Shown: positions 7,877 to 58,460 of the stretch, one piece after another
Numbering within the stretch: the first letter of the stretch is position 1
Layout: each line of letters opens with the position of its first letter
NCBI RefSeq assembly: GCF_030586465.1
Contig: NZ_JAUQYP010000001.1
Span: 909,400-973,399, forward strand
Source of the DNA: Actinotalea lenta
Lineage (GTDB): Bacteria > Actinomycetota > Actinomycetes > Actinomycetales > Cellulomonadaceae
Length of the DNA stretch: 64,000 nucleotides
Reading direction: 5' to 3'
The notes under the pieces: generated by a model
Database searches by the model: none
The model's input: only the letters and a program-made list of their open reading frames with translations
What the model was told of the DNA's origin: nothing
Translations under genes and position numbers: made by a program

Positions 7877-7890
7877 GGGACCTTCGTCGC
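7877..7890 (-). promoter_or_regulatory. Candidate DosR/DevR-like operator (GGGACCTTCGTCGC)
   Basis: This 14-mer is identical to the one upstream of the hydrogenase operon. It lies 46 nt upstream of the preferred start of the flavin-reductase operon. Its core, CGAAGGTCCC, recurs at 43724, 45390 and 58451. The left half matches the GGGAC half-site of actinobacterial DosR boxes; the right half is imperfect. Confidence 0.5.
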
Positions 7891-7934
7891 AACTGGGGTG
7901 ACCAGGCGGTTCGAAGCGGTCACCGGGGCTGCGT

Positions 7935-7940
7935 TACGCT
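7935..7940 (+). promoter_or_regulatory. TACGCT -10 box of the SRP RNA promoter
   Basis: TACGCT stands about six nt before the expected 5' end of the SRP RNA. The upstream TCGAAG (7911-7916) is a weak -35 at 18-bp spacing. Predicted from position only. Confidence 0.45.
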
Positions 7941-7944
7941 GGGT

Positions 7945-8038
7945 GCAGACCCCTCGTACGGCGTCATCTCGCTGAACTCCCCCAGGGCCGGAAGGCAGCA
8001 AGGGCAGGTGAGCTCTGGCGGGTGTGCGGGGGGTCCTT
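7945..8038 (+). ncRNA. ffs: Signal recognition particle RNA, small bacterial type (4.5S-like)
   Basis: The universally conserved apical core, with GGAAGGCAGCAAGGGCAG in the hairpin loop region (7990-8007), is present. Flanking strands pair into a long stem: ACCCCTC at the 5' side against GGGGGGT at the 3' side, and CTCCCCCAG against its partner. The length (about 94 nt) fits the short hairpin form of Gram-negatives and actinobacteria. It partners Ffh in co-translational targeting. Ends are approximate. Confidence 0.93.
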
Positions 8039-8047
8039 GCATGTCCC

Positions 8048-8065
8048 GACGGGGCCGGTCCCGTC
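8048..8065 (+). terminator. Possible SRP RNA terminator hairpin
   Basis: GACGGG and CCCGTC form a 6-bp stem around a 6-nt loop, ten bases past the SRP RNA. No T-run follows, which is normal for such GC-rich genomes. Weak. Confidence 0.35.
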
Positions 8066-8173
8066 TCGCTCACCTCGCCGGCCTGAGGGGGCGGCGGCTC
8101 CGGAGAGGGTTGGGCGACTCGAGGCCCGACATGCCGTGGCAGGCCCGTCGGGAGCCTGGAAGCATGGGGGCAC

Positions 8174-9955
8174 ATGTGTGGACTGGTGGGTGAGATCAGG
8201 CTCGACGGCACGCGTGCCGACGTCCTCGCGGTCGACCGGATGGCGGCCACGATGGCCGACCGCGGCCCGGACGACTCGGGTGTCTGGGCGTCCGGGCGGG
8301 TTGCGCTCGGGCATCGGCGCCTGATGATCATCGACCTCTCCGCCGCGAGCGGCCAGCCCCTGGTCGACGCGGCGGCCGGGATCAGCGGCGTGTTCAACGG
8401 CTGCATCTACAACTACGTCGAGCTGCGGCGTGAGCTTGCGGACAAGGGCCACCGGTTCTTCTCGCACGGTGACTCGGAGGTCGTGCTCAAGGCCTACACC
8501 GAGTGGGGCGAGGACTTCGTCGACCACCTCGTGGGGATGTTCGCGGTCGCGATCGTCGAGCGTGACACCGGGCGCGTCGTGCTCGCCCGGGACAGGCTGG
8601 GCATCAAGCCGATGTATGTCGCCGAGGACGCCCACCGGGTGCGGTTCGCCTCCACGCTGCCCGCGTTGCTGGCCGGCGGTGGTGTCGACACCTCGATCGA
8701 CCCGGTGGCGCTGGCGCACTACATGTCGTTCCACGCCGTGGTCCCCGCACCGCGCACGATCCTGCGCGGCGTGCGCAAGCTGCCGCCCGCCACCGTCCGC
8801 GTGTACGAGCCGGACGGCACGCACCGCGACCGGCTGTACTGGGACGCCGCGTTCACCCGCCGCGAGGACCGCGCGGACTGGTCGGAGACGGACTGGCAGG
8901 ACGCGCTCCTGGAGTCGCTGTCCACGGCGGTCCGGCGGCGCATGGTCGCCGACGTGCCGGTGGGCGTGCTGCTGTCCGGCGGCCTGGACTCCTCGCTGGT
9001 CGTCGCGCTGCTGGCCGAGCAGGGCCAGACCGGGCTGTCCACGTTCTCCATCGGGTTCGAGTCCGTCGGCGGCCGCGAGGGGGACGAGTTCCGCTACTCC
9101 GACCTGATCGCGCAACGGTTCGGCACCGACCACCACCGGATCCACATCCCCGCCGCGGACCTGCTGCCGCCGCTCGAGGCCGCCGTCGGCGCGATGTCCG
9201 AGCCGATGGTCAGCCACGACGCGGTGGCCTTCTACCTGCTCTCCGAGCAGGTGGCCCAGCACCTCAAGGTGGTGCAGTCGGGTCAGGGGGCCGACGAGGT
9301 CCTGGGCGGGTACCACTGGTACCCGCCGCTGGCGGCCGTCAGCCGAGACCAGGCGGTGGAGACCTACGCCCGCGCGTTCTTCGACCGCGACGCAGCGGGC
9401 CTCGCGCAGGTGGTCTCGCCCGAGCACCTGCCCGAGGGCGACCCGGCCCGGGAGTTCGTCGCGGCGCACCTGGGCGCTCCTGGGGCAGAGACGGCGGTCG
9501 ACGCGGCGCTGCGGATCGACACCGAGATCATGCTGGTCGACGACCCGGTCAAGCGGGTGGACAACATGACCATGGCGCACGGGCTGGAAGCCCGCGTGCC
9601 GTTCCTCGACCACGACTTCGTCGAGCTCGCCGCGAGCTGCCCGCCCGAGCTCAAGCTCGCCCAGGGTGGCAAGGGTGTGCTCAAGGAGATCGGTCGCCGG
9701 GTGCTGCCGTGGGAGGTCATCGACCGGCCCAAGGGCTACTTCCCGGTGCCCGGCATCACGCACCTGGAGGGCAAGGTGCTGGACCGGGTGCGTGACGCGC
9801 TGTCCGCTCCCGCCGCGCGCGAGCGCGGCCTCTTCCGCCCCGAGTACGTGGACATGCTCCTCGCCGACCCGAACGGGGAGCTGACGCCGCTGCGCGGCAA
9901 CAAGCTCTGGCAGCTCGGCCTGCTCGAGATGTGGCTGCAGACCCAGGGGATCTGA
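8174..9955 (+). CDS. asnO: N-acetylglutaminylglutamine amidotransferase (asparagine-synthase family)
   Basis: This 593-residue glutamine amidotransferase has an N-terminal Ntn domain starting MCGLVG (Cys2 nucleophile) and a C-terminal ATP-pyrophosphatase domain with the SGGLDSS P-loop near residues 268-274. It would convert N-acetylglutaminylglutamine to its terminal amide, NAGGN, using glutamine nitrogen and ATP. I call this role rather than ordinary asparagine synthesis because the next two genes are the dipeptide synthetase and the M42 peptidase that always accompany it in NAGGN clusters. The stop is one base from the next start codon. Confidence 0.88.
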   Translation: MCGLVGEIRLDGTRADVLAVDRMAATMADRGPDDSGVWASGRVALGHRRLMIIDLSAASGQPLVDAAAGISGVFNGCIYNYVELRRELADKGHRFFSHGDSEVVLKAYTEWGEDFVDHLVGMFAVAIVERDTGRVVLARDRLGIKPMYVAEDAHRVRFASTLPALLAGGGVDTSIDPVALAHYMSFHAVVPAPRTILRGVRKLPPATVRVYEPDGTHRDRLYWDAAFTRREDRADWSETDWQDALLESLSTAVRRRMVADVPVGVLLSGGLDSSLVVALLAEQGQTGLSTFSIGFESVGGREGDEFRYSDLIAQRFGTDHHRIHIPAADLLPPLEAAVGAMSEPMVSHDAVAFYLLSEQVAQHLKVVQSGQGADEVLGGYHWYPPLAAVSRDQAVETYARAFFDRDAAGLAQVVSPEHLPEGDPAREFVAAHLGAPGAETAVDAALRIDTEIMLVDDPVKRVDNMTMAHGLEARVPFLDHDFVELAASCPPELKLAQGGKGVLKEIGRRVLPWEVIDRPKGYFPVPGITHLEGKVLDRVRDALSAPAARERGLFRPEYVDMLLADPNGELTPLRGNKLWQLGLLEMWLQTQGI

Positions 9956-9956
9956 G

Positions 9957-11744
9957 ATGAGCACGACCGACGGTGCACCCCCGACGCCCCGCCAGGACAT
10001 CGGCCCGGGTGGCGACCCCGTGATGGCCGCCGGCGAGCCGGATCGTGACGCGCCCGACGAGGGCGTCGTGCTGGACTGCGGGTGGGGCAGGATCGTGTTC
10101 GGCCAGACCTTCGCCCGGCGGACGCACGCGGCCGAGGTGCTGCGCAGCGAGGCTGCCGGAGCTCGCGACATCTGCATGTACCTGCGCGACGCGCACGTGT
10201 TCGTCGCCAAGCACTCCGACGAGTTCTTCGTCGACCCGTCGCTGACCTACCGGCTGGACCTGACCAGCACGGCGCTGGACGCCGAGCCGCCCCCCGGGGT
10301 CACGCTGCACGAGCTGACCCGGCTCGCCGAGGCCGACGCCGTCAACGCCATCTACGCCCGCAACCAGATGGTCACCGCGGCGGCCGACGTGCTGGTGGAC
10401 GTCGCCGAGCGTCCCGAGGTGGTGCACCTGGTGGCCGAGCTGAGCACCGGCGAGATCATCGGCACGGTGACCGGGGTGGACCACGGCGCGCTGTTCGACG
10501 ACCCCGCGAACGGTTCGTCGCTGTGGTGCCTGACGGTCGACCCGTCGATCGCTCCGCCCGGCGTCGGCCAGGCGCTGCTGGCCGCGATCGCCCGGGAGAT
10601 GACCGCGCGGGGCCGGTCCTCGCTCGACCTGTCGGTGCTCGCGGACAACACCGGCGCGATCCGGCTGTACGAGCGGCTCGGGTTCCGCCGGGTCCCGGAC
10701 CTGGTGGTCAAGCGCAAGAACCCCATCAACGAGCGGCTGTTCCGCGCCGCGGTGCCCGACCACTACGAGGAGCTGAACCCGTATGCGCGGCTCGTCGCGG
10801 ACGAGGCGATGCGGCGCGGCATCCGGGTGGAGGTCACCGACGGGCCCTGGGGCGAGCTGCGCCTGACCCACGGTGCGCGCACCGTGCACACCCGGGAGTC
10901 GCTGTCCGAGCTCACCTCGGCGCTGGCGATGGCACGCTGCGACGACAAGCGCGTGACGCGGCGAGTCCTGTCCGACGCCGGGCTGCGGGTGCCGCGCGGC
11001 GCCACGTCGCGCGGTGGGGAGGCAGACCGTGCGCTGCTGGCCGAGCTCGGCCAGGTCGTGGTCAAGCCCGCGAGGGGTGAGCAGGGCCGCGGGATCACCG
11101 TCGGGGTCCGTGACCCCGAAGCGCTCGAACGGGCCGTGTCCGCGGCCCGGGCGCACTGCCCCGACGTGCTCATCGAGGAGATGGTCGCCGGGCAGGACCT
11201 CCGGGTGATCGTGATCGACCACGAGGTCGTGGCGGCCGCGGTGCGGCGGCCCGCGGCAGTGATCGGCGACGGGGTGCACACCGTCGCGGACCTCATCGAG
11301 CGCCAGAGCAGGCGGCGCTCCGCCGCCACGGGTGGCGAGTCCCGCATCCCGGTGGACGCCGGGACGCTGGACACGGTGGCGGCGGCCGGCTGGTCGATGG
11401 ACGACGTGCTGCCCGACGGAGAGGCCCTCACGGTGCGCCGCACGGCCAACCTGCACACCGGTGGCACCATCCACGACGTGACCGCCGGGCTGCACCCGGT
11501 GCTCGCGGAGGCCTGCGTGGCGGCGAGCAGGGCGATCGCGATCCCGGTTACGGGGCTCGACCTGCTGGTGGCGGCGCCCGACCAGCCCGAGTACGTCATC
11601 ATCGAGGCGAACGAGCGGCCGGGCCTGGCCAACCACGAGCCGCAGCCCACCGCTGAACGGTTCATGGACCTGCTGTTCCCCACGACGGCGGCACCGCCCC
11701 GGCTGTGGACCCCGCGCGGGCACGGCGACGGTGCGAGCCGATAG
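9957..11744 (+). CDS. ngg: N-acetylglutaminylglutamine synthetase (GNAT + ATP-grasp fusion)
   Basis: This 595-residue bifunctional enzyme has a GNAT acetyltransferase domain (about 95-240; LWCLTVDPSIAPPGVGQALL, DNTGAIRLYERLGFRRV) joined to an ATP-grasp ligase domain (about 310-590; VVKPARGEQGRGITVG, EEMVAGQDLRVIVID, and NERPGLANHEPQPT at the end). In Sinorhizobium and Pseudomonas the same fusion acetylates glutamine and ligates it to a second glutamine, giving the osmoprotectant precursor. It is in one operon with the amidotransferase upstream and the peptidase downstream. The acidic N-terminal 45 residues are poorly conserved. Confidence 0.9.
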   Translation: MSTTDGAPPTPRQDIGPGGDPVMAAGEPDRDAPDEGVVLDCGWGRIVFGQTFARRTHAAEVLRSEAAGARDICMYLRDAHVFVAKHSDEFFVDPSLTYRLDLTSTALDAEPPPGVTLHELTRLAEADAVNAIYARNQMVTAAADVLVDVAERPEVVHLVAELSTGEIIGTVTGVDHGALFDDPANGSSLWCLTVDPSIAPPGVGQALLAAIAREMTARGRSSLDLSVLADNTGAIRLYERLGFRRVPDLVVKRKNPINERLFRAAVPDHYEELNPYARLVADEAMRRGIRVEVTDGPWGELRLTHGARTVHTRESLSELTSALAMARCDDKRVTRRVLSDAGLRVPRGATSRGGEADRALLAELGQVVVKPARGEQGRGITVGVRDPEALERAVSAARAHCPDVLIEEMVAGQDLRVIVIDHEVVAAAVRRPAAVIGDGVHTVADLIERQSRRRSAATGGESRIPVDAGTLDTVAAAGWSMDDVLPDGEALTVRRTANLHTGGTIHDVTAGLHPVLAEACVAASRAIAIPVTGLDLLVAAPDQPEYVIIEANERPGLANHEPQPTAERFMDLLFPTTAAPPRLWTPRGHGDGASR

Positions 11745-11747
11745 CGT
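11742..11747 (+). promoter_or_regulatory. TAGCGT box seven nt before the M42 peptidase start
   Basis: TAGCGT overlaps the stop codon of ngg and lies seven nt before ATG 11755. It could give a separate leaderless transcript for the peptidase within the operon. Sequence geometry only. Confidence 0.4.
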
Positions 11748-11754
11748 GCCGCGG

Positions 11755-12915
11755 ATGACCCCGGACCTGACGTACCTGCGCCGCGTGCTCGTCGAGCTCC
11801 TGGAGATCCCGAGCCCGACCGGACGCACCGACCACGTGCAGCAGTACGTGGGCGAGCGGTTGGACCGGCTCGGGGTGCCGTTCGTGGTGACCCGCCGCGG
11901 CGCGATCGTCGCGGACCTCGGCGGCCCGGCCGGGGACGGCGCGAGCCGCGCGATCGCGGTGCACACCGACACGATCGGGGCGATGATCCGCCGGCTGAAG
12001 GAGGACGGACGGCTGGAGCTCAAGCCGGTCGGCACGCACAGCTCGCGGTTCTCCGAGGGCGCCGCGGTGTGGGTCTTCCCCGACGACCTCGAGACCGTCT
12101 ACACGGGTCAGGTCCTGCCCCTCAAGGCCTCCGGGCACCGCTGGGACGACGAGGTGGACAGCCAGGGCGTCTCCTGGGACCAGGTCGAGGTGCGGCTGGA
12201 CGAGCACGTCGCGACCGCCGAGGACCTGCGCGCCCTCGGGCTCGACGTCGGCGACTTCGTGGCGCAGCTCGCCAGCCCGGTGATCACGGACCGCGGCTAC
12301 GTACGGTCCCGGCACCTGGACGACAAGGCGGGTGTCGCCGCCACCCTCGCGGCGGTCAAGGCCATCAAGGACTCCGGCGTCGAGCTGCCGGTGCATGCCC
12401 GGCTGCTCGTGACCTGCACCGAGGAGATCGGGCACGGCGCCAGCCACGGGCTCGCCGAGGACGTCGCCGAGATGGTCTCGGTCGACGCGGCGGTGGTCGC
12501 GCCCGGTCAGCAGTCCCGCGAGCGCGCCGTCACGGTGGCGATGGCCGACGGCGTCGGGCCGTTCGACTACCACCTGAGCCGCCGGTTGCACGCGATCGGT
12601 CGGGATGCGGGCCTGGACGTGGTGCGCGACACGTTCGCGCACTACCGGTCCGACGCGGCGTCGGCCCTCGAGGCGGGCGCGCACCTGCGCGTCGCGCTGC
12701 TCGGGTTCGGGGTGGACGCGACTCATGGCCACGAGCGCACCCACCTGGACAGCCTCGCGGGGCTGTCGACGCTGCTGGCGTCGTACCTGGCCAGCGACCT
12801 GGTGTTCCCGCAGTGGGACACCCGGCCGCAGGGACCGCTGTCGGCGTTCCCGTCGCTCGCGGTCCAGCCCGCGCAGGAGGAAGGTCCGCAGGAGGGCCCG
12901 ATCGACGTCGACTAG
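11755..12915 (+). CDS. NAGGN-system M42 family aminopeptidase
   Basis: This 386-residue metallopeptidase has dinuclear-zinc motifs: AIAVHTDTIG (His-x-Asp), HLDDKAG (bridging Asp), CTEEIGHGASHG (catalytic Glu and zinc Glu) and a C-terminal HGHERTHLD. It belongs to the M42 subgroup found only beside the NAGGN synthesis genes. It probably degrades or recycles the acetylated dipeptide, which would set osmolyte levels. ATG 11755 is preferred over GTG 11731 and 11746 because it fits the TAGCGT spacing and the homology start. The C-terminal 30 residues are a Glu/Gln-rich tail. Confidence 0.85.
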   Translation: MTPDLTYLRRVLVELLEIPSPTGRTDHVQQYVGERLDRLGVPFVVTRRGAIVADLGGPAGDGASRAIAVHTDTIGAMIRRLKEDGRLELKPVGTHSSRFSEGAAVWVFPDDLETVYTGQVLPLKASGHRWDDEVDSQGVSWDQVEVRLDEHVATAEDLRALGLDVGDFVAQLASPVITDRGYVRSRHLDDKAGVAATLAAVKAIKDSGVELPVHARLLVTCTEEIGHGASHGLAEDVAEMVSVDAAVVAPGQQSRERAVTVAMADGVGPFDYHLSRRLHAIGRDAGLDVVRDTFAHYRSDAASALEAGAHLRVALLGFGVDATHGHERTHLDSLAGLSTLLASYLASDLVFPQWDTRPQGPLSAFPSLAVQPAQEEGPQEGPIDVD

Positions 12916-12986
12916 GTCCGACCGGGCGTCGCAGCGGCGGGGCCCGGCGCCCTCCCGCCCCGGTTCTCAGCGTCGGCGGCGGCGTC

Positions 12987-12992
12987 TAGGGT
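12987..12992 (+). promoter_or_regulatory. TAGGGT -10 box, leaderless dnaX
   Basis: TAGGGT lies six nt before the GTG start of dnaX. No ribosome-binding site is present. It supports GTG 12999 as the true start. Confidence 0.6.
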
Positions 12993-12998
12993 GGCCGC

Positions 12999-15323: not shown

Positions 15324-15431
15324 CCGGCGGATGGTCCCTTGTCCACCCCGGCGACCCGCCGGATGATCACGGAAGCCGGGTCGCGGGAGCCGGACGGGGG
15401 AGTGGATGCGCATCGATCACAGCGGTGCCCC

Positions 15432-16223: not shown

Positions 16224-16226
16224 GCT
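16221..16226 (+). promoter_or_regulatory. TAGGCT -10 box, leaderless recR
   Basis: TAGGCT overlaps the stop of the preceding gene (TAG at 16221) and lies six nt before the GTG of recR, giving a probable leaderless transcript. Confidence 0.6.
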
Positions 16227-16232
16227 GATCGC

Positions 16233-17409: not shown

Positions 17410-17442
17410 GGGCGGGCGGCCCACGGCGTCGAGCGCCGGCGG

Positions 17443-18126: not shown

Positions 18127-18187
18127 CGCGGGGACTGCCGGGCTCGTGTCCCGCCGCCCGGCCCCCACCAGTTCCGGAGTATTCGCC

Positions 18188-26063: not shown

Positions 26064-26155
26064 CAGGTTGGCTCTCTCGGGGTCTGACAAGGGCCCGAAC
26101 GGCCCATATCAACCTGGGGTGTGACGAACTACCGTGACCTGAAGGGGAGAGGAGC

Positions 26156-26494
26156 ATGACCGTGCAGGACCAGCACTGGACCGCGTACGGCGCCTGCGGC
26201 AAGGCTTCCCCCGACGACCTGTTCGTCGAGGGCGCGGCGCAGCGGGCTGCGCGCGAGGTGTGCCTGCGCTGCCCGGTGCGGTTCGAGTGCCTGGTGGACG
26301 CGCTCGATCACCGGGTCGCCTTCGGGGTCTGGGGCGGGATGACGGAGCGCGAACGCCGCGCCCTCATGCGCCGGTTCCCGGACGTCGAGTCCTGGCGGGA
26401 GGTCCTCGAAGCCACCCCGGAGCTGGCGCTGGTCGGGGGCGCGCGGCCGCTGCCCGGCACGGACCGTGAGCGTGGGATGGTGCACGGCGGGTAG
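26156..26494 (+). CDS. whiB4: WhiB-family [4Fe-4S] transcription factor (WhiB4-like)
   Basis: This 112-residue protein has the four cluster ligands Cys14, Cys36, Cys39 and Cys45 (C-x21-C-x2-C-x5-C), the GVWGG turn at 57-61, and the basic helix TERERRALMRRF. GGGAGAGGAG precedes the ATG. The identity as WhiB4 rests on its place beside ponA2, DUF4177 and RidA. In Mycobacterium, WhiB4 senses oxygen/redox and modulates antioxidant and beta-lactam responses through ponA2 and beta-lactamase. It probably works here with sigma-A region 4, as known for the family. Confidence 0.9.
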   Translation: MTVQDQHWTAYGACGKASPDDLFVEGAAQRAAREVCLRCPVRFECLVDALDHRVAFGVWGGMTERERRALMRRFPDVESWREVLEATPELALVGGARPLPGTDRERGMVHGG

Positions 26495-43719: not shown

Positions 43720-43733
43720 GCGCCGAAGGTCCC
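43720..43733 (+). promoter_or_regulatory. Candidate DosR/DevR-like operator upstream of SDR gene
   Basis: GCGCCGAAGGTCCC (reverse GGGACCTTCGGCGC) lies 36 bp before the SDR start. It shares CGAAGGTCCC with the boxes at 7881, 45390 and 58451. A second GC-rich half (TCGGCCC) follows at 43738-43744. Confidence 0.5.
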
Positions 43734-43769: not shown

Positions 43770-44798
43770 ATGCGCATCGCCGTGCTCGGGGCCACCGGAT
43801 TCCTCAGCAGTGCCGTCGTGGATGCCGCGTTGGCGGCAGGTCACGACGTGATCGCCGTGTCGCGCGGCAACCAGGGAGAGCCTCCGCCCGGCACCACGTG
43901 GGTGCGTGCGGACCGCGACGACGTCGCGTCGCTGTCGGGAGCGATGGCGCCGTTCCTGGACACCATCGACTCGGTGATCGACTGCAGCGGGTTCACCGTC
44001 GAGGGAGCGATCGCCGCGGCCGCCGTGTTCAAGAAGGTCCCGCACTACGTGTACGTGTCGAGCATCTCCGCGTACCGCAACTGGCCCCCCGGACCGATCC
44101 AGGGTGAGGACGACGAGCTCGCACACCCGGACGACGACCTGACGCACGCGGGCCCCATGAAGGCGCAGAGCGAGCGCATCCTGCGCGCCGCCGTGGGCAA
44201 GCGACTGCTCGCGGTCCGCGCCGGGATCATCATCGGGCCCGGTGACGACACCCACCGGCTGACCACGTGGCTGCACCGGATCGCGACCGAGCGGTGGGTC
44301 GGCGTGCCGGCGGCGCGGAGCCAGCCGATCGCCGTGATCGACGTGCGCGACCTCGCCTCCTGGATGGTCACCGCCGCCGAGGAGCTCGTCATCGGTCCGC
44401 TCAACGCGACCGGACCGGAGGGCATGTGCACGTTCGGCGAGATGCTCGAGGCGTGCGCCGACGCGGTGCGGTCCACCGGTCGTGAGCCGGCCACGTTCGT
44501 CAACCTGCACGACGCAGAGATGCGCGCAGCCGGCGTCAAGCCCTGGTCGGACCTGCCCTTCGTGCTGCCGGGCGACGTCGCGCACACCGTGTGGCAGGTG
44601 GACACCACGCGGGCTCGTGAGCTCGCGGTACCCGTGCGGCCCATCGCCGACTCGGTCGCGGACACCTGGGCGTGGCAGATCAAGGCGAACCTCCGGCACC
44701 CCCCGGTGCCGCGGGTCGTGCAGGACCTGACCACCCGCAAGGTCGCGGAGAAGCTCGCCAAGGAGGCGGCTGCAGCCGAGGAGACCGCGAACGTCTGA
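43770..44798 (+). CDS. NAD-dependent epimerase/dehydratase-type SDR
   Basis: This 342-residue extended SDR has the nucleotide-binding motif VLGATGFLSSAVV. The catalytic area YVYVSSISAYRNW carries Ser/Tyr; the usual YxxxK is replaced by a divergent segment (GPMKAQSERIL), so catalysis may be atypical. It probably acts on a nucleotide-linked or small carbonyl compound. The upstream DosR-like box suggests redox-linked expression. The end is convergent with trmL. Confidence 0.8.
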   Translation: MRIAVLGATGFLSSAVVDAALAAGHDVIAVSRGNQGEPPPGTTWVRADRDDVASLSGAMAPFLDTIDSVIDCSGFTVEGAIAAAAVFKKVPHYVYVSSISAYRNWPPGPIQGEDDELAHPDDDLTHAGPMKAQSERILRAAVGKRLLAVRAGIIIGPGDDTHRLTTWLHRIATERWVGVPAARSQPIAVIDVRDLASWMVTAAEELVIGPLNATGPEGMCTFGEMLEACADAVRSTGREPATFVNLHDAEMRAAGVKPWSDLPFVLPGDVAHTVWQVDTTRARELAVPVRPIADSVADTWAWQIKANLRHPPVPRVVQDLTTRKVAEKLAKEAAAAEETANV

Positions 44799-45385: not shown

Positions 45386-45399
45386 GCGACGAAGGTCCC
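45386..45399 (+). promoter_or_regulatory. Candidate DosR/DevR-like operator upstream of hydBGDA
   Basis: GCGACGAAGGTCCC is identical, as a 14-mer, to the site upstream of the flavin-reductase operon (7877-7890). It lies 59 bp before the hydB start in the only gap ahead of the hydrogenase operon. Confidence 0.55.
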
Positions 45400-45458: not shown

Positions 45459-46592
45459 ATGACGGACGGACCACGGATCATCGGCCGGGACCAGCTGGCC
45501 CGGCTCGTCGAGGTGCTGACCGCCCGGGGCTATGCGGTGGTGGCGCCTACGGTGCGCGCGGGGGCGGTGGTGCTCGACGAGGTGGTCGGTGCGGACGATC
45601 TGCCGTGGGGCGTCGGTGACGTCCAGGATGCGGGAACCTACCGGCTGCGCGAGCGGGACGACGAGGCCGTGTTCGGCCAGGCCGCGGCGGTCCGCGCGGT
45701 CAAGCCGGTCCTGTTCCCCGCCGACGAGCTCATCTGGCGCGGTCATCGCAGCGGCACCGACTTCGCCGTGACCGACCGCGAGGGCTCGCCTCAGCGGCCG
45801 GTGGCCTTCCTGGGGGTGCGCGACTGCGACCTGCGGGCCCTGGCGCGCCACGACGAGGTCCTGGCGGGGCGTGCCTTCGCCGACACCCGCTACCAGCGCC
45901 GCCGCGCGGGGACGTTCCTGGCGGCGGTGACGTGCGCCGAGCCGGGTGGCACGTGCTTCTGCACCTCGATGGGCGGCGGTCCGCACCCGGAGAACGGCTA
46001 CGACCTGGCGCTGACGGAGCTGCTCGACCCGCACCGCTTCGTGGTCGAGGTAGGTTCGGACACCGGCGCGGACGTGCTCGCGGAGCTGGACTCGGAGCCG
46101 GCCGGAGCCCAGGACCTGGCAGCGGTGCACGACGTCGTCGCGCACGCCACCGAGTCGATGGGTCGGTCCATGGACACCGAGGGCCTGCGCGACCTGCTCT
46201 ACGCCTCGGCGGAGAGCCCGGTCTGGGACGAGGTCGGCAATCGCTGCCTGACCTGCATGAACTGCACCATGGTGTGCCCGACCTGCTTCTGCACCACCGT
46301 CGAGGACGTCTCCGCACTCGGGAGCGCCGATGCCGAGCGCCGCCGGGTCTGGGACTCGTGCTTCTCCGAGGAGTTCGCCCACATCCACGGTGGCAGCCTG
46401 CGCACCGAGGTCAGGTCCCGGTACCGCCAGTGGATCACGCACAAGCTCGCCGCCTGGCAGGACCAGTTCGGATCGCTCGGCTGTGTGGGCTGCGGTCGGT
46501 GCATCACCTGGTGCCCGGTGGGCATCGACATCACGGCGGAGGCCGCCAAGCTCCGCGCCGCCGCGCCGCTCACCGTGGGAGGTGCCCGATGA
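45459..46592 (+). CDS. hydB: [NiFe] hydrogenase group 3b, beta subunit (4Fe-4S)
   Basis: This 377-residue electron-transfer subunit is of the HydB/sulfhydrogenase type. The C-terminal half has two clusters of cysteines: C263LTCMNCTMVCPTCFC and C342VGCGRCITWCPVG, each a 4Fe-4S ligand set, with further Cys (GGTCFCTSMGG) midway. It relays electrons between the HydG flavin and the NiFe site. GGAGG precedes ATG. Each gene overlaps the next by ATGA-type junctions (hydB-hydG-hydD-hydA), the same order as Pyrococcus hydBGDA. Confidence 0.93.
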   Translation: MTDGPRIIGRDQLARLVEVLTARGYAVVAPTVRAGAVVLDEVVGADDLPWGVGDVQDAGTYRLRERDDEAVFGQAAAVRAVKPVLFPADELIWRGHRSGTDFAVTDREGSPQRPVAFLGVRDCDLRALARHDEVLAGRAFADTRYQRRRAGTFLAAVTCAEPGGTCFCTSMGGGPHPENGYDLALTELLDPHRFVVEVGSDTGADVLAELDSEPAGAQDLAAVHDVVAHATESMGRSMDTEGLRDLLYASAESPVWDEVGNRCLTCMNCTMVCPTCFCTTVEDVSALGSADAERRRVWDSCFSEEFAHIHGGSLRTEVRSRYRQWITHKLAAWQDQFGSLGCVGCGRCITWCPVGIDITAEAAKLRAAAPLTVGGAR

Positions 46593-47440
46593 CCGCAACG
46601 CTGGACCGCCCCGTCGCCCCCGACGCGATGGCGCCCGCGCGCTACCGGATCGGACGCACCCGCCAGGACACGCGGGACACCTTCACCATCGAGCTCGAGC
46701 CGGTGGACGGCCCCATGCTGCGCTACCGCGCCGGTCAGTTCACCATGCTGGACGCGTTCGGTGTCGGCGAGGTCCCGATCTCGATCTCCGGCGACCCGAC
46801 CCGCCCCGGCCCGCTCGAGCACACCATCCGTGACGTCGGAGCTGTCACCCACGCCTTGATCGCCGCACCGCGCGGTGCCGTGCTCGGCGTCCGCGGCCCG
46901 TTCGGGACGTCCTGGGACGTCGCGGACGGCATGGGCGGCGACGTCGTCCTGGTGGCCGGCGGCATCGGGCTCGCGCCGCTGCGACCGGCCCTGCTCGAGA
47001 TCGTCCGGCACCGGGACCGGTACAACCGCGTGGTCCTGCTGTACGGCGCTCGCACCCCCGAGGACATCCTGTTCGGCGACGAGCTGCGCAGCTGGGCCCA
47101 CGACCACGGCATCGTCGTCGAGGTCACCGTGGACAACGGGCAGCACGCCTGGCGCGGCAAGGTCGGCCTGGTCACGAACCTGGTCCCGCGGGCCGGGTTC
47201 GACCCGCACTCCACCCTCGCACTGGTCTGCGGCCCGGAGGTGATGATGCGCTCGGCCGCGCAGGCGCTCGTGGCGCGCGGTGTGCCCGGCGACCGCGTCC
47301 GGCTGTCGCTCGAACGCAGCATGAAGTGCGGCGTGGGGCTGTGCGGCCACTGCCAGCTGCGTGACCTGTTCGTGTGCGTCGACGGCCCGGTGCTCGGGTA
47401 CGACCGGTTGGCGCCGCTGCTGAGCGTGAGGGAGCTGTGA
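46589..47440 (+). CDS. hydG: [NiFe] hydrogenase group 3b, gamma subunit (FAD/NAD(P)H)
   Basis: This 283-residue FNR-fold diaphorase has YRAGQFTML (FAD side), [17 protein letters not shown] (NAD(P) site), and a C-terminal 2Fe-2S-type motif ([22 protein letters not shown]). It couples hydrogen turnover to NAD(P)H. The ATG overlaps the hydB stop. Cofactor preference cannot be read with certainty, but the family is usually NADP(H)-dependent. Confidence 0.94.
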
Positions 47441-48267
47441 TGTTCGACGAGTCCCTGAAGTCCTCCGCCCGGCCCAAGCTCGCCGTGTGGAAGTTCGCGT
47501 CCTGCGACGGCTGCCAGCTCAGCCTGCTCAACTGCGAGGAGGAGCTGCTCACGGTCGCGGGCGCGGTGTCCATCGCGTACTTCCCGGAGGCCACCCGCGG
47601 CGTGGTCGAGGGCCCGTACGACGTGTCCCTGGTCGAGGGTTCGGTGACCACGCCGGAGGAGATCGAGCGGATCGCCCAGATCCGGGAGATGTCCCGGGTC
47701 GTGGTGACGCTCGGCGCGTGCGCTACGAGCGGCGGGATCCAGGCGCTGCGCAACTTCGCCGACGTCGCCGAGTTCCGCTCGGTGGTCTACGCGCACCCGG
47801 AGTACCTGTCCACGCTGGCCCGCTCCACGCCGATCTCCGCGCACATCAGCGTCGACCTCGAGCTGCGCGGCTGCCCGATCGACAAGGGGCAGCTGCTCGA
47901 GGTCCTCGGGGCCCTCGTCGAGCACCGCCGCCCGCGGATCCCGTCGTACTCGGTGTGTGCCGAGTGCAAGCGCCGCGGCACGGTGTGCGTCGCGGTCGCG
48001 CACGGGACCCCGTGCCTCGGGCCGGTCACCCAGGCCGGCTGCGGCGCGCTCTGCCCCGCCTACGAGCGCGGCTGCTACGGCTGCTTCGGGCCGCAGAACA
48101 CCCCGAACACGGCCTCGCTGTCCGACCACCTGGTGGCCACGGGCATGAGCCCGGAGATGGCGATGCGGGTGTACCGCACGTTCAACGCGGCCTCGGAGCC
48201 GTTCCGGCGGGAGAGCGAGCGCCAGGAGAGGGCGGTCGTCGCGTCCGGGAAGGGGAACGCACGATGA
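47440..48267 (+). CDS. hydD: [NiFe] hydrogenase group 3b, delta (small) subunit
   Basis: This 275-residue protein of the NADH:ubiquinone oxidoreductase 20 kDa fold has a proximal-cluster motif ([19 protein letters not shown]), then [11 protein letters not shown] and RGCPID. The C-terminal part carries [29 protein letters not shown] and CYGCFGPQ, ligands for further 4Fe-4S clusters. It overlaps the hydG stop by one base. It bridges the NiFe site to the flavin/Fe-S modules. Confidence 0.94.
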
Positions 48268-49589
48268 CCCAGGTCAGCGACCGGCCGAGCGCCGGCACCC
48301 CGCACCCCACCCAGACCCTGCAGGTGGGCATGCTCGCCAGGGTCGAGGGCGAGGGCGGCCTGCACGTGGAGATCCACGACGGCCGCGTCACCGACGTGCA
48401 GCTGCGGATCTTCGAGCCGCCACGGTTCTACGAGGCGTTCCTGCGGGGCCGCGCCTACACCGAGCCGCCGGACATCACGGCGCGGATCTGCGGGATCTGC
48501 CCGGTGGCGTACCAGTTCAGCTCCTGCCTGGCGATGGAGGACGCCTGCGGCGTCACGGTGCCCGACCACATCCGCACGATGCGGCGGCTGCTGTACTGCG
48601 GCGAGTGGATCGAGAGCCACGCGTTGCACATGTTCCTGCTGCACGCGCCGGACTTCCTCGGCTACCCGGGTGCGGTCGAGATGGCCGCGGACCACCCGGA
48701 TGTCGTCGCGACGGGGCTGCGCCTGAAGAAGGCCGGCAACGACCTGATGGACCTGGTGGGCGGCCGGTCCGTGCACCCGATCAACGTGCGGCTCGGCGGC
48801 TTCTACCACCTGCCGACGGTCGCCGAGCTCCGCGCGATCCGCCCCCGCCTGGCCGCGGCCCTCGACGACGCCGTCGCTACGGTCCGGCTGGTCTCGACGT
48901 TCGACTTCCCGGAGATGGAGCAGCGCTACCCGTACCTCGCGCTCCGACCGGACGTCGGCTACCCGCTCGAGGGTGGGCACGTGGTCACGAGCGAGGGCGA
49001 CTCCTGGCCGGTGCAGGAGTTCCGCGAGCACATCGCGGAGTTCCACGTCGAGCACTCCACGGCGCTGCACTCCACCCTCGACGGTCAGCCGTACGTGGTG
49101 GGGCCGCTCGCAAGGTACTCGCTCAACCACGACCGGCTGTCCCCGCTCGCCCGCGAGCTGGCGCACGAGGCCGGCCTGGGCGTGACGTGCCGCAACCCGT
49201 TCCGCTCGATCGTGGTGCGTGGCGTCGAGCTCGTGGAGGCGCTGGTCGAGGCGCTGCGCATCATCGACGAGTGGGTCGACGGCCGGCCGGCGTCGGTGCC
49301 CGTGCCGGCCCGCGCGGGGGAGGGCTTCGGGGCGACCGAGGCGCCGCGTGGCGTGCTGTTCCACCGGTACGTCATCGACGACGCCGGGACGATCAAGGAC
49401 GCGCAGATCGTGCCGCCGACCGCGCAGAACCAGCCGAGCATCGAAGGCGACCTGCGCGAGCTCGCCGAGCGGTGGGTCGCCCTTGGTGACCACGACCTCG
49501 GCCACCGCGCCGAGCTCGCGATCCGCAACTACGACCCGTGCATCTCGTGCTCGGTGCACGCCGTCGAGGTGACCGTCCACCGCACCTGA
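48264..49589 (+). CDS. hydA: [NiFe] hydrogenase group 3b, alpha (large, catalytic) subunit
   Basis: This 441-residue catalytic subunit reversibly interconverts H2 and protons. The Ni/Fe ligands are all present: L1 RICGIC (Cys76, Cys79) and L2 DPCISCSVH (Cys426, Cys429). A nine-residue tail (AVEVTVHRT) follows His432, the usual cut site of maturation endopeptidase, so the precursor form is encoded. No hyp maturation or endopeptidase genes are in this window; they must lie elsewhere. In actinobacteria such enzymes support fermentation-like redox balance at low oxygen. Confidence 0.95.
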
Positions 49590-49604
49590 CGCGGGCGGTC
49601 CGCA

Positions 49605-49639
49605 CGTCGAGGGGCGCTCCCGCGGGGCGCCCCTCGACG
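49605..49639 (+). terminator. Terminator after the hydrogenase operon
   Basis: A 13-bp perfect stem (CGTCGAGGGGCGC at 49605-49617, complement at 49627-49639) with a 9-nt loop, 16 bp after the hydA stop. It sits just before the convergent SRPBCC gene end and can act for both. Confidence 0.85.
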
Positions 49640-49653
49640 CACGCCACGCGGTG

Positions 49654-50289: not shown

Positions 50290-50376
50290 GGCCCCAGCCA
50301 ACCCGCCCGGGGGCCGCAGGGCGAGGGCCGATCGGCCCACCACCACGGGACGGCCCCACCAGCGGCCGCCGGGCCC

Positions 50377-50382
50377 TACGGT
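50377..50382 (+). promoter_or_regulatory. TACGGT -10 box, leaderless aldo/keto reductase
   Basis: TACGGT lies six nt before the GTG 50389 start. Confidence 0.55.
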
Positions 50383-50388
50383 GGCCCG

Positions 50389-51417: not shown

Positions 51418-51446
51418 CGGCTCCAGCGGGTCGTCGCCAGGCGGGA

Positions 51447-51480
51447 CGGCACCGGCCCCCGGTCGGCGGGGCCGGTGCCG
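51447..51480. terminator. Bidirectional terminator between aldo/keto reductase and epimerase
   Basis: 13-bp perfect arms (CGGCACCGGCCCC at 51447-51459; 51468-51480) with an 8-nt loop between two converging genes. Confidence 0.85.
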
Positions 51481-51498
51481 CGGCCCGCACCGAGCGGC

Positions 51499-52350: not shown

Positions 52351-52419
52351 ACACCCATCGTGCCCGTCCGTGGCGTACGACGCGCAGCGGGGAGGTCGGC
52401 GCCCTAGGCTCGCTCGGAG

Positions 52420-53916: not shown

Positions 53917-53950
53917 GACCGTCGCGCGCCGCGGCCGCGAGCACCGCATG

Positions 53951-53982
53951 GCGACGGCCGCCCCCGAAGGGACGGCCGTCGC
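53951..53982. terminator. Bidirectional terminator between MFS gene and glpK
   Basis: GCGACGGCCG (53951-53960) pairs with 53973-53982 around a 12-nt loop, between converging genes. Confidence 0.75.
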
Positions 53983-54069
53983 GTGGGGCTCGGCCCACCG
54001 ATCCCGGTCCGCGAGCGGGCCGGCGCGCCGAGCCCTCCTGGGCCGGGCAGGCGGAGCCCGCCTGGGACG

Positions 54070-55587
54070 TCACTCGGTGTCGGCGTCCACCCAGTCGAAG
54101 GTCTTGGTGACGGCCTTCTTCCAGTTCCGGTACGTCTTCTCCCGTGCCTCGACGTCCATGTCGGGCGTCCAGCGCTTGTCCTCGGCCCAGTTGTCGATGA
54201 CGTCCTGCTCGCCCGACCAGAACCCGACGGCGATGCCGGCCGCGTAGGCCGCGCCGAGAGCGGTGGTCTCGGCGACCTTCGGTCGCACCACGTCCACGCC
54301 GAGGATGTCCGCCTGGAACTCCATGAGCAGCTCGTTGGCGATCATGCCGCCGTCGACCTTGAGCTCCTTGAGCTCGACGCCGGAGTCGGCGTTCATCGCG
54401 TCCAGCACCTCGCGGGTCTGGAAGGCGGTGGCCTCGAGCGCCGCCCGGGCGATGTGGCCCTTGGTGACGTACCGCGTGAGGCCGGCGATCACGCCGCGCG
54501 CGTCGCCGCGCCAGTACGGCGCGAACAGGCCGGAGAACGCCGGCACGAAGTACGCGCCGCCGTTGTCCTCGACCGTCTTGGCCAGGTCCTCGACCTCGGG
54601 TGCCGAGGAGATCAGGCCCAGGTTGTCGCGCAGCCACTGGATCAGCGAGCCGGTGACCGCGATCGAGCCCTCGAGGGCGTAGATCGGGGCGTTGTCGCCG
54701 ATCTTGTAGCACACCGTGGTGAGCAGGCCGTTCTTGGACGGGACCGGCTCGGTCCCGGTGTTGAGCAGCATGAAGTTGCCGGTGCCGTAGGTGTTCTTGG
54801 CGTCGCCGACCTCGAAGCACGCCTGGCCGAAGGTCGCAGCCTGCTGGTCGCCGAGGATGCCCGCGATCGGCACACCCGGGACCATGCCGCCCTCGCGGCC
54901 GTGGCCGTAGACCTCGGAGGAGGACTTGATCTCGGGCAGCATGGACATCGGGATGCCCATCTCGCCGGCGATCTCCGCGTCCCAGCTCAGCGTCGACAGG
55001 TCCATGAGCATGGTCCGCGAGGCGTTGGTGACGTCGGTGACGTGCACGCCGCCGTCGACCCCGCCGGTCATGTTCCACAGCACCCACGCGTCGGTGTTGC
55101 CGAACGCCAGCTGCCCGGCCTCGGCCTTCTCCCTGGCGCCCTCGACGTTGTCGAGGATCCAGCGGACCTTCGGGCCCGAGAAGTAGGTCGCCAGCGGGAG
55201 GCCGACCCTGGCCTTGTAGCGCTCGGCGCCGCCGCCCAGCGCCGCCAGCTCGTCACAGATCTTCTGCGTGCGGGTGTCCTGCCAGACGATCGCGTTGTAG
55301 ACGGGCTCGCCCGTCGTCTTGTCCCACACGACAGAGGTCTCGCGCTGGTTGGTGATGCCGACCGCCGCGATGTCCCGGTAGGTGAGGTTGGCCCTGGTCA
55401 GCGCCAGGCCGACGACCTCGCGGATGTTGTCCCAGATCTCCATCGGGTTGTGCTCGACCCAACCCGGCTTCGGGAAGATCTGCTCGTGCTCCTTCTGCCC
55501 GGTCGACACGATCGACCCGGAGTGGTCGAACACGATGGCACGCGAGCTCGTGGTGCCCTGGTCGATGGCGAGGATGTAGTCAGCCAT
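54070..55587 (-). CDS. glpK: Glycerol kinase
   Basis: This 505-residue kinase makes sn-glycerol-3-phosphate. It begins [21 protein letters not shown] and has the glycerol site GITNQRET and the signature [16 protein letters not shown]-site [13 protein letters not shown], and [12 protein letters not shown] 55587 has AAGGACGG upstream. It is the last gene of the glp cluster, separated from glpF by a 215-bp gap with a hairpin. Confidence 0.97.
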
Positions 55588-55756
55588 GTCCGTCCTTCGT
55601 CGATTGAACGGTGCGGTGGGGTTCCACCGCGGTGAGGGTGAGGTCACGCTCGGGACGTGGCCCGGGTGACGCACCGCTGGGGCGCGTCGTCGTGCGTGTC
55701 GCAGCACAGGGCGCGGCTCGCACAGGAGTTGCGACGGGGCCGAGGGCCCCGGGGTG

Positions 55757-55781
55757 CGGGGTCGCTACCGGAGCGACCCCG
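55757..55781 (-). terminator. Hairpin in the glpF-glpK gap
   Basis: CGGGGTCGCT (55757-55766) pairs with 55772-55781, 5-nt loop, 22 bp after glpF. It may end transcription or attenuate read-through into glpK. Confidence 0.6.
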
Positions 55782-55802
55782 CGACCACAGGAGTCGGTCG
55801 TG

Positions 55803-56534
55803 CTAGACGACGTACCACTGGGCGACGAGGCCCGCGAGGGCGCCGCCGACGATCGGGCCGAAGACCGGGACCCAGGAGTAGGCCCAGTCGGACGAGCCCT
55901 TGCCCGGGATCGGCAGGATCGCGTGCGCGATGCGCGGGCCGAGGTCACGGTTCGGGTTGATGGCGTACCCGGTGGGACCACCGAGGCTCGCGCCGATGCC
56001 GACCACCAGGAGGGCCACGGCGAGCGGGCCAAGGCCGGTCGGCGTCTTGCCGAACGCGATGATGACGAACACCAGGACGAACGTGCCGATGACCTCAGTG
56101 ATGAAGTTCCAGCCGTAGGACCGGATGGCCGGACCGGTGGAGAAGACGCCCAGCTTGACGGCCGGGTCGGCGTCCTCGTCGAAGTGCTTCTTGTAGGCCA
56201 GCCAGGCCAGGACGGCGCCGAGGAAGGCGCCGAACATCTCGCCGCCCAGGTAGACCATCGTCGAGGCGAAGGAGACCTCGACCCCGGGTGCGTACTCCTT
56301 GGCGCCGTTGGCCAGCAGGCCGATCGTCACGGCGAAGTTCAGGTGGGCACCGCTCTTGTAGGCCGAGTAGACACCGGCGAACACGCCGAGGCCCCATCCG
56401 AAGTTGATGAGGAGCCAACCACCGTCGAACCCCTTGTTCTTCGGAAGGATGACGTTCGCCACGACTCCTGCACCGAGCAGGAGCAGCATCGCCGTGCCCA
56501 CGGTCTCGGAGACGAACACTTCTCCCAGTGACAT
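55803..56534 (-). CDS. glpF: Glycerol facilitator (aquaglyceroporin), atypical NPA boxes
   Basis: This 243-residue MIP-family channel has about six membrane helices. The two half-helix boxes are altered: the first reads HLNFAVTI (NFA) and the second INPNRDLGPR (NPN) instead of NPA. The selectivity Arg after box two is kept. It sits between glpD and glpK on the same strand, so glycerol uptake is the likely role. AGGAAAAG precedes the ATG. Confidence 0.93.
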   Translation of the reverse strand: MSLGEVFVSETVGTAMLLLLGAGVVANVILPKNKGFDGGWLLINFGWGLGVFAGVYSAYKSGAHLNFAVTIGLLANGAKEYAPGVEVSFASTMVYLGGEMFGAFLGAVLAWLAYKKHFDEDADPAVKLGVFSTGPAIRSYGWNFITEVIGTFVLVFVIIAFGKTPTGLGPLAVALLVVGIGASLGGPTGYAINPNRDLGPRIAHAILPIPGKGSSDWAYSWVPVFGPIVGGALAGLVAQWYVV

Positions 56535-56637
56535 CTGCTTTTCCTCGTTTCACTCGCGGACTTCGTTGTCACAAGCACCCGCAGCAGGGGGCCGCGGGCA
56601 GAGGTGGAGCACCCGGGGATCGCCCGGGAGTAGGGGG

Positions 56638-58395
56638 TCAGGTATCGGCCGGCGTACGGCCGAGCGGGACCAGGGGGACGAGGTCGGCCGCCTGCAGGCG
56701 CACCGCTTCCGCCTCGGCGTCGTCCGCCACGAACGAGGCCTGCTCGTCGGCCTCGCACCGCGCCCGGTAGGAGTCGATCTCCGCCTGGCGGCGTCCGGCG
56801 TCCCAGCCGAGGCGCTCGGCGACCAGGTCGGCGATCTCCTCGACGGCCGCCAGGCCGCGGTCCCGCTGCTCGTAGACCAGGCGGGTGCGGTGCAGCATGA
56901 CGTCCTCGAGGTGCAGGACGCCCTCGTGGGTCGCGGCGTAGGCGATCTCGGCGCGCAGGTAGGCCGGAGCGCCCTCCAGGGGCCGACCGAGCGAGGGGTC
57001 GGCATCCACGGAGTCCATGATCTCGGCCAGCAGTGCGCCGTACCGGTGCAGCAGGTGGTCGACCATGGCGGACGTCCACCCGTAGGCGGCGCCGATCTGC
57101 CGTGCCTGGCGCTGCAGCACCGCGTGGCCCTCGGCGCCGGCGAGCGCGATGCGGTCGGTGAGCGACGGCAGGCTCGCGGCCCGCTCGCCGAGCGCGAAGT
57201 CCACGGCGTCCTTGGCCATCACCCGGTAGGTGGTGAGCTTGCCGCCGGCGATGACCGTCAGACCCGGGGTCGGCGAGGCGACGGTGTGCTCGCGGGACAC
57301 CTTGGCCGACGACGTGCCCTCCTTGGTGCCCGGCTGGAGCAACGGGCGCAGACCGGCCCACACCCCGATGACGTCGTCGCGGGTCAGGGGGCGCGCCAGG
57401 ACGGCGTTCGCGTGGTCGATGACGTAGTCGATGTCCGCGGAGGTCGCGACCGGGTGCACCAGCTGCTGCTTCCACTCGGTGTCGGTGGTGCCGATCACCC
57501 AGTAGCGCGACCACGGGATGACGAACAGCACGGACTTCTCGGTCTGCAGGATCAGGCCGACGTCGCCGCGGATCCGGTCGCGCGGCACGACGATGTGGAT
57601 GCCCTTGGAGGCGAGCACGTGCAGGCCGCCGTCGGTGTCGGCCAGCGCCTCGGTCTCTTCGGTCCACACGCCGGTCGCGTTGATGACCTGGTCGGCCTTG
57701 CAGGTGAACCGCTCCCCGGTCTCCAGGTCCTGGAGCACCGCCCCGTCCACCACGCCCGTGCCGCGCTTGGTCAGCTCGACGACCTGGGTGCGGCTGGCCG
57801 CGTGCGCCCCGTAGCTGACGGCGGTCCTGATGAGGGTCTCGACCAGGCGGGCGTCGTCGACGCTCGCGTCGTAGTAGCGCACCGCGCCGACGGCTGCGTC
57901 GTGCCGCAGGTCGGGGAAGAGTCGCTCCATGCCGGCGCGGCTGACGTGCCGGTGCCACGGCATCGCACGCTTGCCCGGCGCGATCGAGGCGAGGGTGTCG
58001 TACAGCGCGACGCCGGCCCCCACGTAGGCGCGCTCCCAGTAGGCGTTCTCGAGCGGGTACAGGAACGACACCGGTCGCACCAGGTGGGGCGCGATCCGCT
58101 TGAGCAGCAGGTCGCGCTCCGTGAGCGCCTCGTGCACCAGGTGGAAGTCGAGCATCTGCAGGTATCGCAGTCCGCCGTGCACCAGCTTGCTGGACCGGCT
58201 GGACGTCCCGCTGGCCCAGTCCTGGGCCTCAACGATCCCGACGCGCAGGCCGCGGGTCACGGCGTCCAGGGCGATGCCGGCGCCGGTGACGCCACCACCG
58301 ATAACCAGGATGTCGAGCTCACGCCCCTGGCCACTGTCGGCCAAGGCCTCGAGCGCATGCTGCCGGGTCTGCGGCGTCAGGGCTGCCGTTCTCAC
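56638..58395 (-). CDS. glpD: Glycerol-3-phosphate dehydrogenase, FAD-dependent (aerobic type)
   Basis: This 585-residue flavoprotein oxidises glycerol-3-phosphate to dihydroxyacetone phosphate. The FAD site is LDILVIGGGVTGAGIALDAV, with SSRSSKLVHGGLRYL, and an FAD C-terminal domain. GTG 58395 follows GAGGAGG. It starts the glp operon and is divergent from the SorC regulator; between them lie a DosR-like box and an inverted repeat. Electrons probably go to quinone. Confidence 0.95.
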   Translation of the reverse strand: MRTAALTPQTRQHALEALADSGQGRELDILVIGGGVTGAGIALDAVTRGLRVGIVEAQDWASGTSSRSSKLVHGGLRYLQMLDFHLVHEALTERDLLLKRIAPHLVRPVSFLYPLENAYWERAYVGAGVALYDTLASIAPGKRAMPWHRHVSRAGMERLFPDLRHDAAVGAVRYYDASVDDARLVETLIRTAVSYGAHAASRTQVVELTKRGTGVVDGAVLQDLETGERFTCKADQVINATGVWTEETEALADTDGGLHVLASKGIHIVVPRDRIRGDVGLILQTEKSVLFVIPWSRYWVIGTTDTEWKQQLVHPVATSADIDYVIDHANAVLARPLTRDDVIGVWAGLRPLLQPGTKEGTSSAKVSREHTVASPTPGLTVIAGGKLTTYRVMAKDAVDFALGERAASLPSLTDRIALAGAEGHAVLQRQARQIGAAYGWTSAMVDHLLHRYGALLAEIMDSVDADPSLGRPLEGAPAYLRAEIAYAATHEGVLHLEDVMLHRTRLVYEQRDRGLAAVEEIADLVAERLGWDAGRRQAEIDSYRARCEADEQASFVADDAEAEAVRLQAADLVPLVPLGRTPADT

Positions 58396-58446
58396 ACTCG
58401 TCCTCCTCGACGTGCTGCCGGGATGCCGCGCCCCGGCCTCAAGCCG

Positions 58447-58460
58447 GGGTCGAAGGTCCC
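58447..58460. promoter_or_regulatory. Candidate DosR/DevR-like operator in the glpD-sorC gap
   Basis: GGGTCGAAGGTCCC (reverse GGGACCTTCGACCC) is the most symmetrical of the four boxes. It lies 52 bp upstream of glpD and ten bp before the TATGCT -10 of the divergent gene, at its -35 position. Confidence 0.5.

Follow-up and report, generated by a model that had tools for sequence, protein, structure and literature searches.

The DNA stretch analysed here (the window) spans 64,000 nucleotides of the Actinotalea lenta genome (contig NZ_JAUQYP010000001.1, positions 909,400 to 973,399) and contains four copies of a short intergenic box, which we interpret as the candidate binding site of a DevR/DosR/OsdR-type response regulator. 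The box sites are sequence predictions throughout, and genes in the window were called from codon usage. The boxes and the genes that they precede are as follows.

7877-7890: predicted DevR-type box (GGGACCTTCGTCGC), 46 bp before the ferric-reductase operon (minus strand); a signal recognition particle RNA gene lies 54 bp off on the other side
43720-43733: predicted DevR-type box (GGGACCTTCGGCGC on the minus strand), 36 bp before a gene of the short-chain dehydrogenase/reductase (SDR) type
45386-45399: predicted DevR-type box (GGGACCTTCGTCGC on the minus strand), 59 bp before the hydrogenase operon
58447-58460: predicted DevR-type box (GGGACCTTCGACCC on the minus strand), between glpD and a SorC-type regulator gene
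4959-5729, minus strand: ApbE-type flavin transferase (PF02424)
5801-6322, minus strand: FMN-binding domain protein (PF04205)
6337-7830, minus strand: ferric-reductase-like transmembrane protein (PF01794)
43770-44798, plus strand: NAD-dependent epimerase/dehydratase (extended SDR)
45459-46592, plus strand: hydrogenase/sulfhydrogenase beta-type Fe-S subunit (Fer4_22)
46589-47440, plus strand: hydrogenase gamma-type NAD(P)/FAD subunit
47440-48267, plus strand: hydrogenase small (delta) subunit (Oxidored_q6)
48264-49589, plus strand: [NiFe]-hydrogenase large (alpha) subunit (PF00374)
56638-58395, minus strand: glycerol-3-phosphate dehydrogenase (glpD type)
58554-59510, plus strand: SorC/DeoR-type regulator with a sugar-binding domain (PF04198)

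The core of the box is the 10-mer CGAAGGTCCC, exact copies of which occur at 7877-7886 (minus strand) and at 43724-43733, 45390-45399 and 58451-58460 (plus strand). All four are intergenic according to our gene calls, and the distances to the start codons are 46 bp (ATG 7830), 36 bp (43770), 59 bp (45459) and 55 bp (glpD start, 58395); the copy at 58451 is also 93 bp from the SorC-type start at 58554. These positions agree with the first-pass annotation, which had placed four intergenic copies 36-60 bp before start codons (36-59 bp in our calls) and had noted two identical 14-mers, both GGGACCTTCGTCGC, at 7877-7890 and 45386-45399. Its remark that no further intergenic copy exists holds for exact matches in the window, where none was found beyond these four, but is to be corrected for the whole genome, which contains 26 exact copies.

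Shuffled versions of the window are expected to contain 0.16 copies of the 10-mer, and 0/100 shuffles reached four. As a check for multiple testing, we surveyed the 2129 window 10-mers with at least four non-overlapping copies. Only two have every copy in intergenic DNA, and CGAAGGTCCC is the sole dispersed one, as the other, ATCGCGGCGC, is repeated locally in tandem at 60125-60197. Tandem repeats of 19 bp, in adjoining arrays, extend over 60093-60285, directly after the gene at 59520-60092. When one mismatch is allowed, the signal is weak and nearer to chance (14 window matches versus 7.2 expected, with 3/100 shuffles reaching 14).

On the opposite strand the box reads GGGACCTTCG, followed at the four sites by TCGC, GCGC, TCGC or ACCC. 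Its form is that of a palindrome, GGGAC-n4-G[GT]CCC, the second arm of which is imperfect at the window sites. Mycobacterial DosR/DevR sites are built from GGGAC half-sites. From its sequence, the 10-mer is best read as one arm of a predicted 14-bp palindrome, GGGACCWWSGKCCC, with the DevR/OsdR layout.

Copies of the 10-mer were then read individually in the A. lenta genome (3.31 Mb, 3 contigs; 26/26 copies) and in two genomes of the same genus that had played no part in motif discovery, G107 (32/32) and G089 (33/34, one copy being left out). Of the 26 A. lenta copies, 10 are intergenic and 14 coding, the two ambiguous copies being excluded from these counts; the corresponding splits are 18/14 in G107 and 11/22 in G089. 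Altogether, 39 of 91 copies are intergenic, 50 are coding and 2 are ambiguous, against an intergenic baseline of 7.4%, measured in the window; relative to the amount of DNA, the 10-mer is thus not as common in coding sequence as between genes. The bias is found in the two congeners (29/65, binomial 3e-16 against 0.074, and 6e-11 if 12% is assumed) and in the A. lenta genome outside the window (6/20, p=2.6e-3; 0.026 at 12%). Intergenic copies also have a better second arm, matching [GT]CCC at 2.79/4 positions in the 39 intergenic copies versus 1.46/4 in the 50 coding copies (p=1.7e-9, and p=1.2e-8 without the four window sites). As the search word did not extend into the second arm, this difference argues independently for a palindromic site recognised by a protein.

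Counts alone are weak evidence. In 121 genomes of the family, with the reversed 10-mer as a control, the 10-mer is in excess in the genus itself (289 versus 101, higher in 11/11 genomes), and the comparison is flat or reversed in genera g7 (182 versus 189) and g9 (75 versus 124). Such a control takes no account of codon bias (GGG ACC TTC encodes Gly-Thr-Phe). Given these mixed results, we base the case on where the copies lie relative to genes, on the second arm and on orthologous promoters.

Orthologous promoters were scored for the box at up to 2 mismatches, against a reversed-sequence control and with the A. lenta genome counted in. The box is conserved at two promoters. It precedes the hydrogenase genes in 11/11 promoters, 47-59 bp before the start (control 0/11; Fisher 1.4e-6). 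This set leaves out a fragment (L110), the second-hydrogenase paralogs L111 and L112, and L113, a split gene (L109/L113) for which no start was called; the excluded L113 locus does bear a box. At cydA, the first gene of a cydABDC-devS row, the box was found in 29/30 promoters, 17/30 without any mismatch (control 2/30; Fisher 1.1e-13). The set comprises the 30 best-matching of 117 genomes with a match, and in A. lenta the site is a perfect GGGACCAAGGTCCC, 82 bp before cydA, which differs from the search word. A second set, drawn from 80 named loci of the regulator DevR1 described below, gave 45 usable cydA promoters, 23 with a box (control 2). The 22 misses are two Cellulomonas promoters (L310 and L382, 3 mismatches each) and 20 genomes of the Actinomycetaceae type or other Actinomycetales. 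At L327, L330, L348, L378 and L384 (only L348 is within the 45), a plain GGAC-n4-GTCC pair was found 198-274 bp before cydA, and some other loci of this kind have none.

The remaining window boxes are less well conserved. The glpD box was found in 8/30 promoters (best-matching of 108 genomes; control 2/30; Fisher 0.04), and in the sister genome G099 it reads GGGACCTCGGACCC, likewise 93 bp from the SorC-type start. For the SDR gene, the only promoter with a box is that of A. lenta itself (1/11, control 1/11; locus L244 was left out of the set), while G099 retains the GGGAC arm alone in the corresponding position (GGGACTTAGGGCGG, 3 mismatches). The ferric-reductase box was found in 3/30 promoters (best-matching of 41 genomes; control 1/30). 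As some ferric-reductase start codons appear to have been misplaced by the gene caller, these upstream sequences were also read directly, and the box is absent from that of G099. On these results the hydrogenase site is firm, the glpD/SorC site moderate, the SDR site weak and the ferric-reductase site unsupported by conservation. The proposal that all four operons form one regulon is thus upheld for the hydrogenase and, in part, for glpD/SorC, and is not borne out by conservation for the other two. It is an evenly balanced question whether true targets are limited to the hydrogenase and probably glpD/SorC, with the boxes at the SDR and ferric-reductase genes as lineage-specific additions or chance matches, a possibility that would refine rather than replace a DevR-type reading. 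The counts above and the reduced or absent G099 sites speak for it. However, each of the two sites matches the 10-mer exactly and lies at promoter distance, the 14-mer before the ferric-reductase operon does not differ from the conserved one before the hydrogenase, and regulon membership can turn over among species.

Elsewhere in the genome, boxes precede genes of the kind expected of a hypoxia regulon, as the first-pass annotation had suggested a genome-wide scan might reveal. In A. lenta, an exact box at C1:1241443 lies between moaE-like/moaA and a row comprising an ArsR-like regulator, narK and narG (this copy was scored as ambiguous because the called moaE start overlaps it). Other exact copies are a perfect palindrome before ctaC-ctaD (aa3 oxidase; C1:2560461) and a box at C2:144408 between moaCB and a PAS-GGDEF-EAL gene. 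A further perfect box, mismatched to the search word, is 212 bp from a WhiB gene (C2:276144). Mismatched copies precede two flavodoxin-domain genes (C1:1563251 and C2:272958) and a gene of the geranylgeranyl-reductase family, behind which lie nuoA and nuoB (C1:240597). A universal-stress protein (USP) gene near C1:2532885 is merely the second gene, after a boxed DUF4192 gene.

Among the 18 intergenic copies in G107, boxed genes include an ArsR-like regulator/moaCB-like gene, pflB, adhE/hsp20, a major facilitator superfamily transporter and the hydrogenase, as well as an FMN reductase with the box 408 bp away. The 11 intergenic copies in G089 include those at usp, nrdD, SDR, P-type ATPase, zinc alcohol dehydrogenase and hydrogenase genes. 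The boxes at the genes for pyruvate formate-lyase (PFL), AdhE and NrdD each come from one congener. Boxed genes that the congeners share with A. lenta by sequence are the narK regulator, moaC and the hydrogenase; one further shared pair (44% identity) has an A. lenta member 210 bp from a near-match. Candidate targets of the DevR/DosR core type are boxed in all three genomes, namely nar/moa in A. lenta, USP and P-type ATPase in G089 and Hsp20 in G107. Behind another G107 box lies a gene for a DUF4914 protein (L154:398-2386), which may point to a low-oxygen role for this family of unknown function.

The A. lenta genome has twelve places encoding GerE-domain proteins. Two of the twelve, picked by eye, were compared with proteins of known structure in the PDB set.

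C1:2770357-2771040, minus strand: DevR1, the end of an rnc-fpg-devR1 gene row, convergent with devS
C1:2614050-2614697 (L090): DevR2, beside a PAS-GAF kinase

The DosR-like LuxR-type regulator that the first-pass annotation had proposed to look for is encoded, together with a DevS-type kinase. The nearest solved relative of DevR1 is DevR (3c3w, 4.5e-52; next, 5.5e-37). The residues of DevR named as base contacts are Lys179, Lys182 and Asn183 (PMC4082495), and their equivalents are kept in 80/80 named DevR1 orthologs, the nearest of which belong to Actinotalea and Cellulomonas bogoriensis (85-86%). The kinase gene devS is the last gene of the cydABDC-devS row, which is preceded by the perfect box described above. 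DevS has the domain order GAF-GAF-HisKA_3-HATPase, and its first GAF domain has DevS GAF-A as best solved match (1.6e-33). The equivalents of DevS His149 and Tyr171, residues 120 and 142 here, are kept in the 30/30 closest orthologs, own protein included, as far as residue identity goes. Of the 80 named DevR1 loci, 70 have a match to devS and 67 a match to cydC within the DNA analysed. In genera g5, g15, g17 and g19, the best devS match begins only at residue 147-176, as if the kinase lacked the heme-type first GAF; the 10-mer count of g19 is nonetheless very high (271 versus 60, 6 genomes).

Taken together, the boxes are very probably bound by a response regulator of the DevR/DosR/OsdR type, with DevR1 as the likeliest reader. 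The palindromic layout, the intergenic bias, the conservation and the encoded DevR and DevS-type proteins all support the DosR-like regulon that had been suggested. In the mechanism we envisage, loss of oxygen from the heme of the first GAF would cause DevS to phosphorylate DevR1, dimers of which would bind GGGACCWWSGKCCC, mostly about 35-120 bp before start codons. DevR1 would then switch on the bd oxidase together with devS, providing positive feedback, as well as nitrate respiration and molybdenum-cofactor genes, the group 3b-like hydrogenase, glycerol-3-phosphate genes and perhaps flavin redox genes, so that the window operons might be under joint control.

Several observations weigh against this interpretation. 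No box at up to 2 mismatches was found before devR1 itself (L089). Among 67 named orthologs with the region aligned, the heme His aligns in 37 and the Tyr in 60. Exact intergenic copies without a clear redox link occur in A. lenta in the mtrA-mtrB gap and at a TraR/DksA-type gene, a gene without a Pfam match and the DUF4192 gene; several of the remaining G107 and G089 targets are also non-redox or without assignment. Searching the whole genome for the 14-mer with 2 mismatches or fewer was abandoned as too noisy, since the mild excess (201 versus 162 for the reversed control) means that single weak sites cannot be called. Finally, genus g24 also has a high 10-mer count (91 versus 29), and there a match to DevS at 1e-30 occurs in 0/4 genomes and one to the DevR2 query at 1e-40 in 0/4, DevR1 itself not having been searched family-wide.

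That DevR2 reads the box, or shares it with DevR1, is improbable. The nearest solved relative of DevR2 is also DevR (2.6e-50; next, 1.8e-28), the protein retains the equivalents of Lys182 and Asn183, and paralogs of the NarL family can share sites. However, DevR2 has Ser in place of Lys179. Moreover, when DevR2 was used as a query in 10 other sampled genomes of the genus, nothing closer than 37-40% identity was found (10/10), and these matches lay at the cyd-linked DevR1 places. DevR2 is thus without a near ortholog in genomes where boxes are conserved and the 10-mer exceeds its control (11/11 in the genus), which makes DevR1 the likelier reader. Still less probable is a reader from another family, such as the ArsR-like regulator beside narK. 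Its gene adjoins a box in A. lenta (L078) and relatives adjoin boxes at two G107 places (L145 and L161), but the layout is that of DevR sites, the kinase operon bears a perfect copy, and none of these regulators was observed next to the boxes of the hydrogenase or cydA. Chance, or the base composition of a GC-rich genome, would fit the small excess at one mismatch in the window and at two in the genome, and is made extremely improbable by the shuffles, the 10-mer survey, the intergenic bias with its second arm, and the orthologous-promoter counts.

Two other palindromic sequences occur in the window. A palindrome-like GGGCCGTTCGGGCC at 26092-26105 lies 50 bp before a WhiB gene (26156-26494). 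The other is listed below.

50325-50338: perfect palindrome GGGCCGATCGGCCC, a candidate site 50 bp before an aldo/keto reductase gene, identical to the core of the published Streptomyces OsdR consensus

This candidate was rejected as a regulon site, being absent before the aldo/keto reductase ortholog in G099.

The hydrogenase operon encodes four subunits, alpha-beta-gamma-delta. The enzyme probably belongs to the group 3b [NiFe] class, an assignment to be read with the fact that NCBIfam sulfhydrogenase models match the subunits below their cut-offs. A second copy of the beta-type gene (60% identity; G000:C2:214243, L111) has two weaker box-like sites 74 bp apart, and G099 has the same pair (L112).

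The gene content behind the boxes (nitrate, molybdenum cofactor, PFL, AdhE, NrdD and hydrogenase) leans towards anaerobic growth, beyond dormancy alone. More tentatively, and with slightly less than even confidence, we suggest that in Cellulomonadaceae, and probably in Actinomycetaceae, DevR-DevS may be the main regulator of anaerobic growth, doing the work of FNR/ArcA, rather than a dormancy switch. A single heme kinase, encoded with the bd oxidase that it helps to induce, would set bd and nitrate respiration, molybdenum-cofactor supply, PFL/AdhE fermentation, anaerobic ribonucleotide reduction and hydrogenase. To our knowledge, oxygen sensing in facultatively anaerobic actinobacteria has been little described outside mycobacteria and streptomycetes. 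Among the titles and abstract openings of open-licence literature, a basis on which absence is weak evidence, we found no DevR/DosR work in Cellulomonas or Actinotalea. Because the box is defined, the regulator gene named and the kinase seen to have the known heme residues, the oxygen-sensing question can be tested directly in harmless laboratory species that degrade cellulose, for which a predicted target list, hydrogenase included, is supplied.

The system resembles DevR/DosR-DevS/DosT of Mycobacterium tuberculosis in its NarL-type regulator with the same base-contacting residues, its GAF-GAF kinase with the heme His/Tyr, and its GGGAC palindrome; universal-stress, Hsp20, P-type ATPase and nitrate genes are candidate targets in both. 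In contrast to M. tuberculosis, devS closes a cydABDC row, devR1 stands apart, convergent with it, at the end of the rnc-fpg row, cydA is boxed, and the candidate targets add pflB, adhE, nrdD and hydrogenase. In Mycobacterium smegmatis, a hydrogenase of this type is under a DosR-type regulator; here, in another lineage, the genome has two operons for such a hydrogenase, each bearing box-like sites. In a report on the carbon monoxide response of M. smegmatis, cytochrome bd is listed apart from the dos regulon (PMC8125079), whereas cydA here bears a strongly conserved box. For OsdR/OsdK of Streptomyces coelicolor, the OsdR consensus is given as AGGGCCGATCGGCCCT, and nitrate, USP and alcohol-dehydrogenase genes are among the predicted targets (PMC5069765). 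The GC-rich palindrome and these target classes recur in our data; unlike the OsdR core GGGCCGATCGGCCC, the box has A at position 4 and WW at its centre (GGGACCWWSGKCCC). Judged from sequence, the regulator, the box and the kind of system are already known, and what is new is the lineage, the cydABDC-devS arrangement and the predicted anaerobic-growth gene content.

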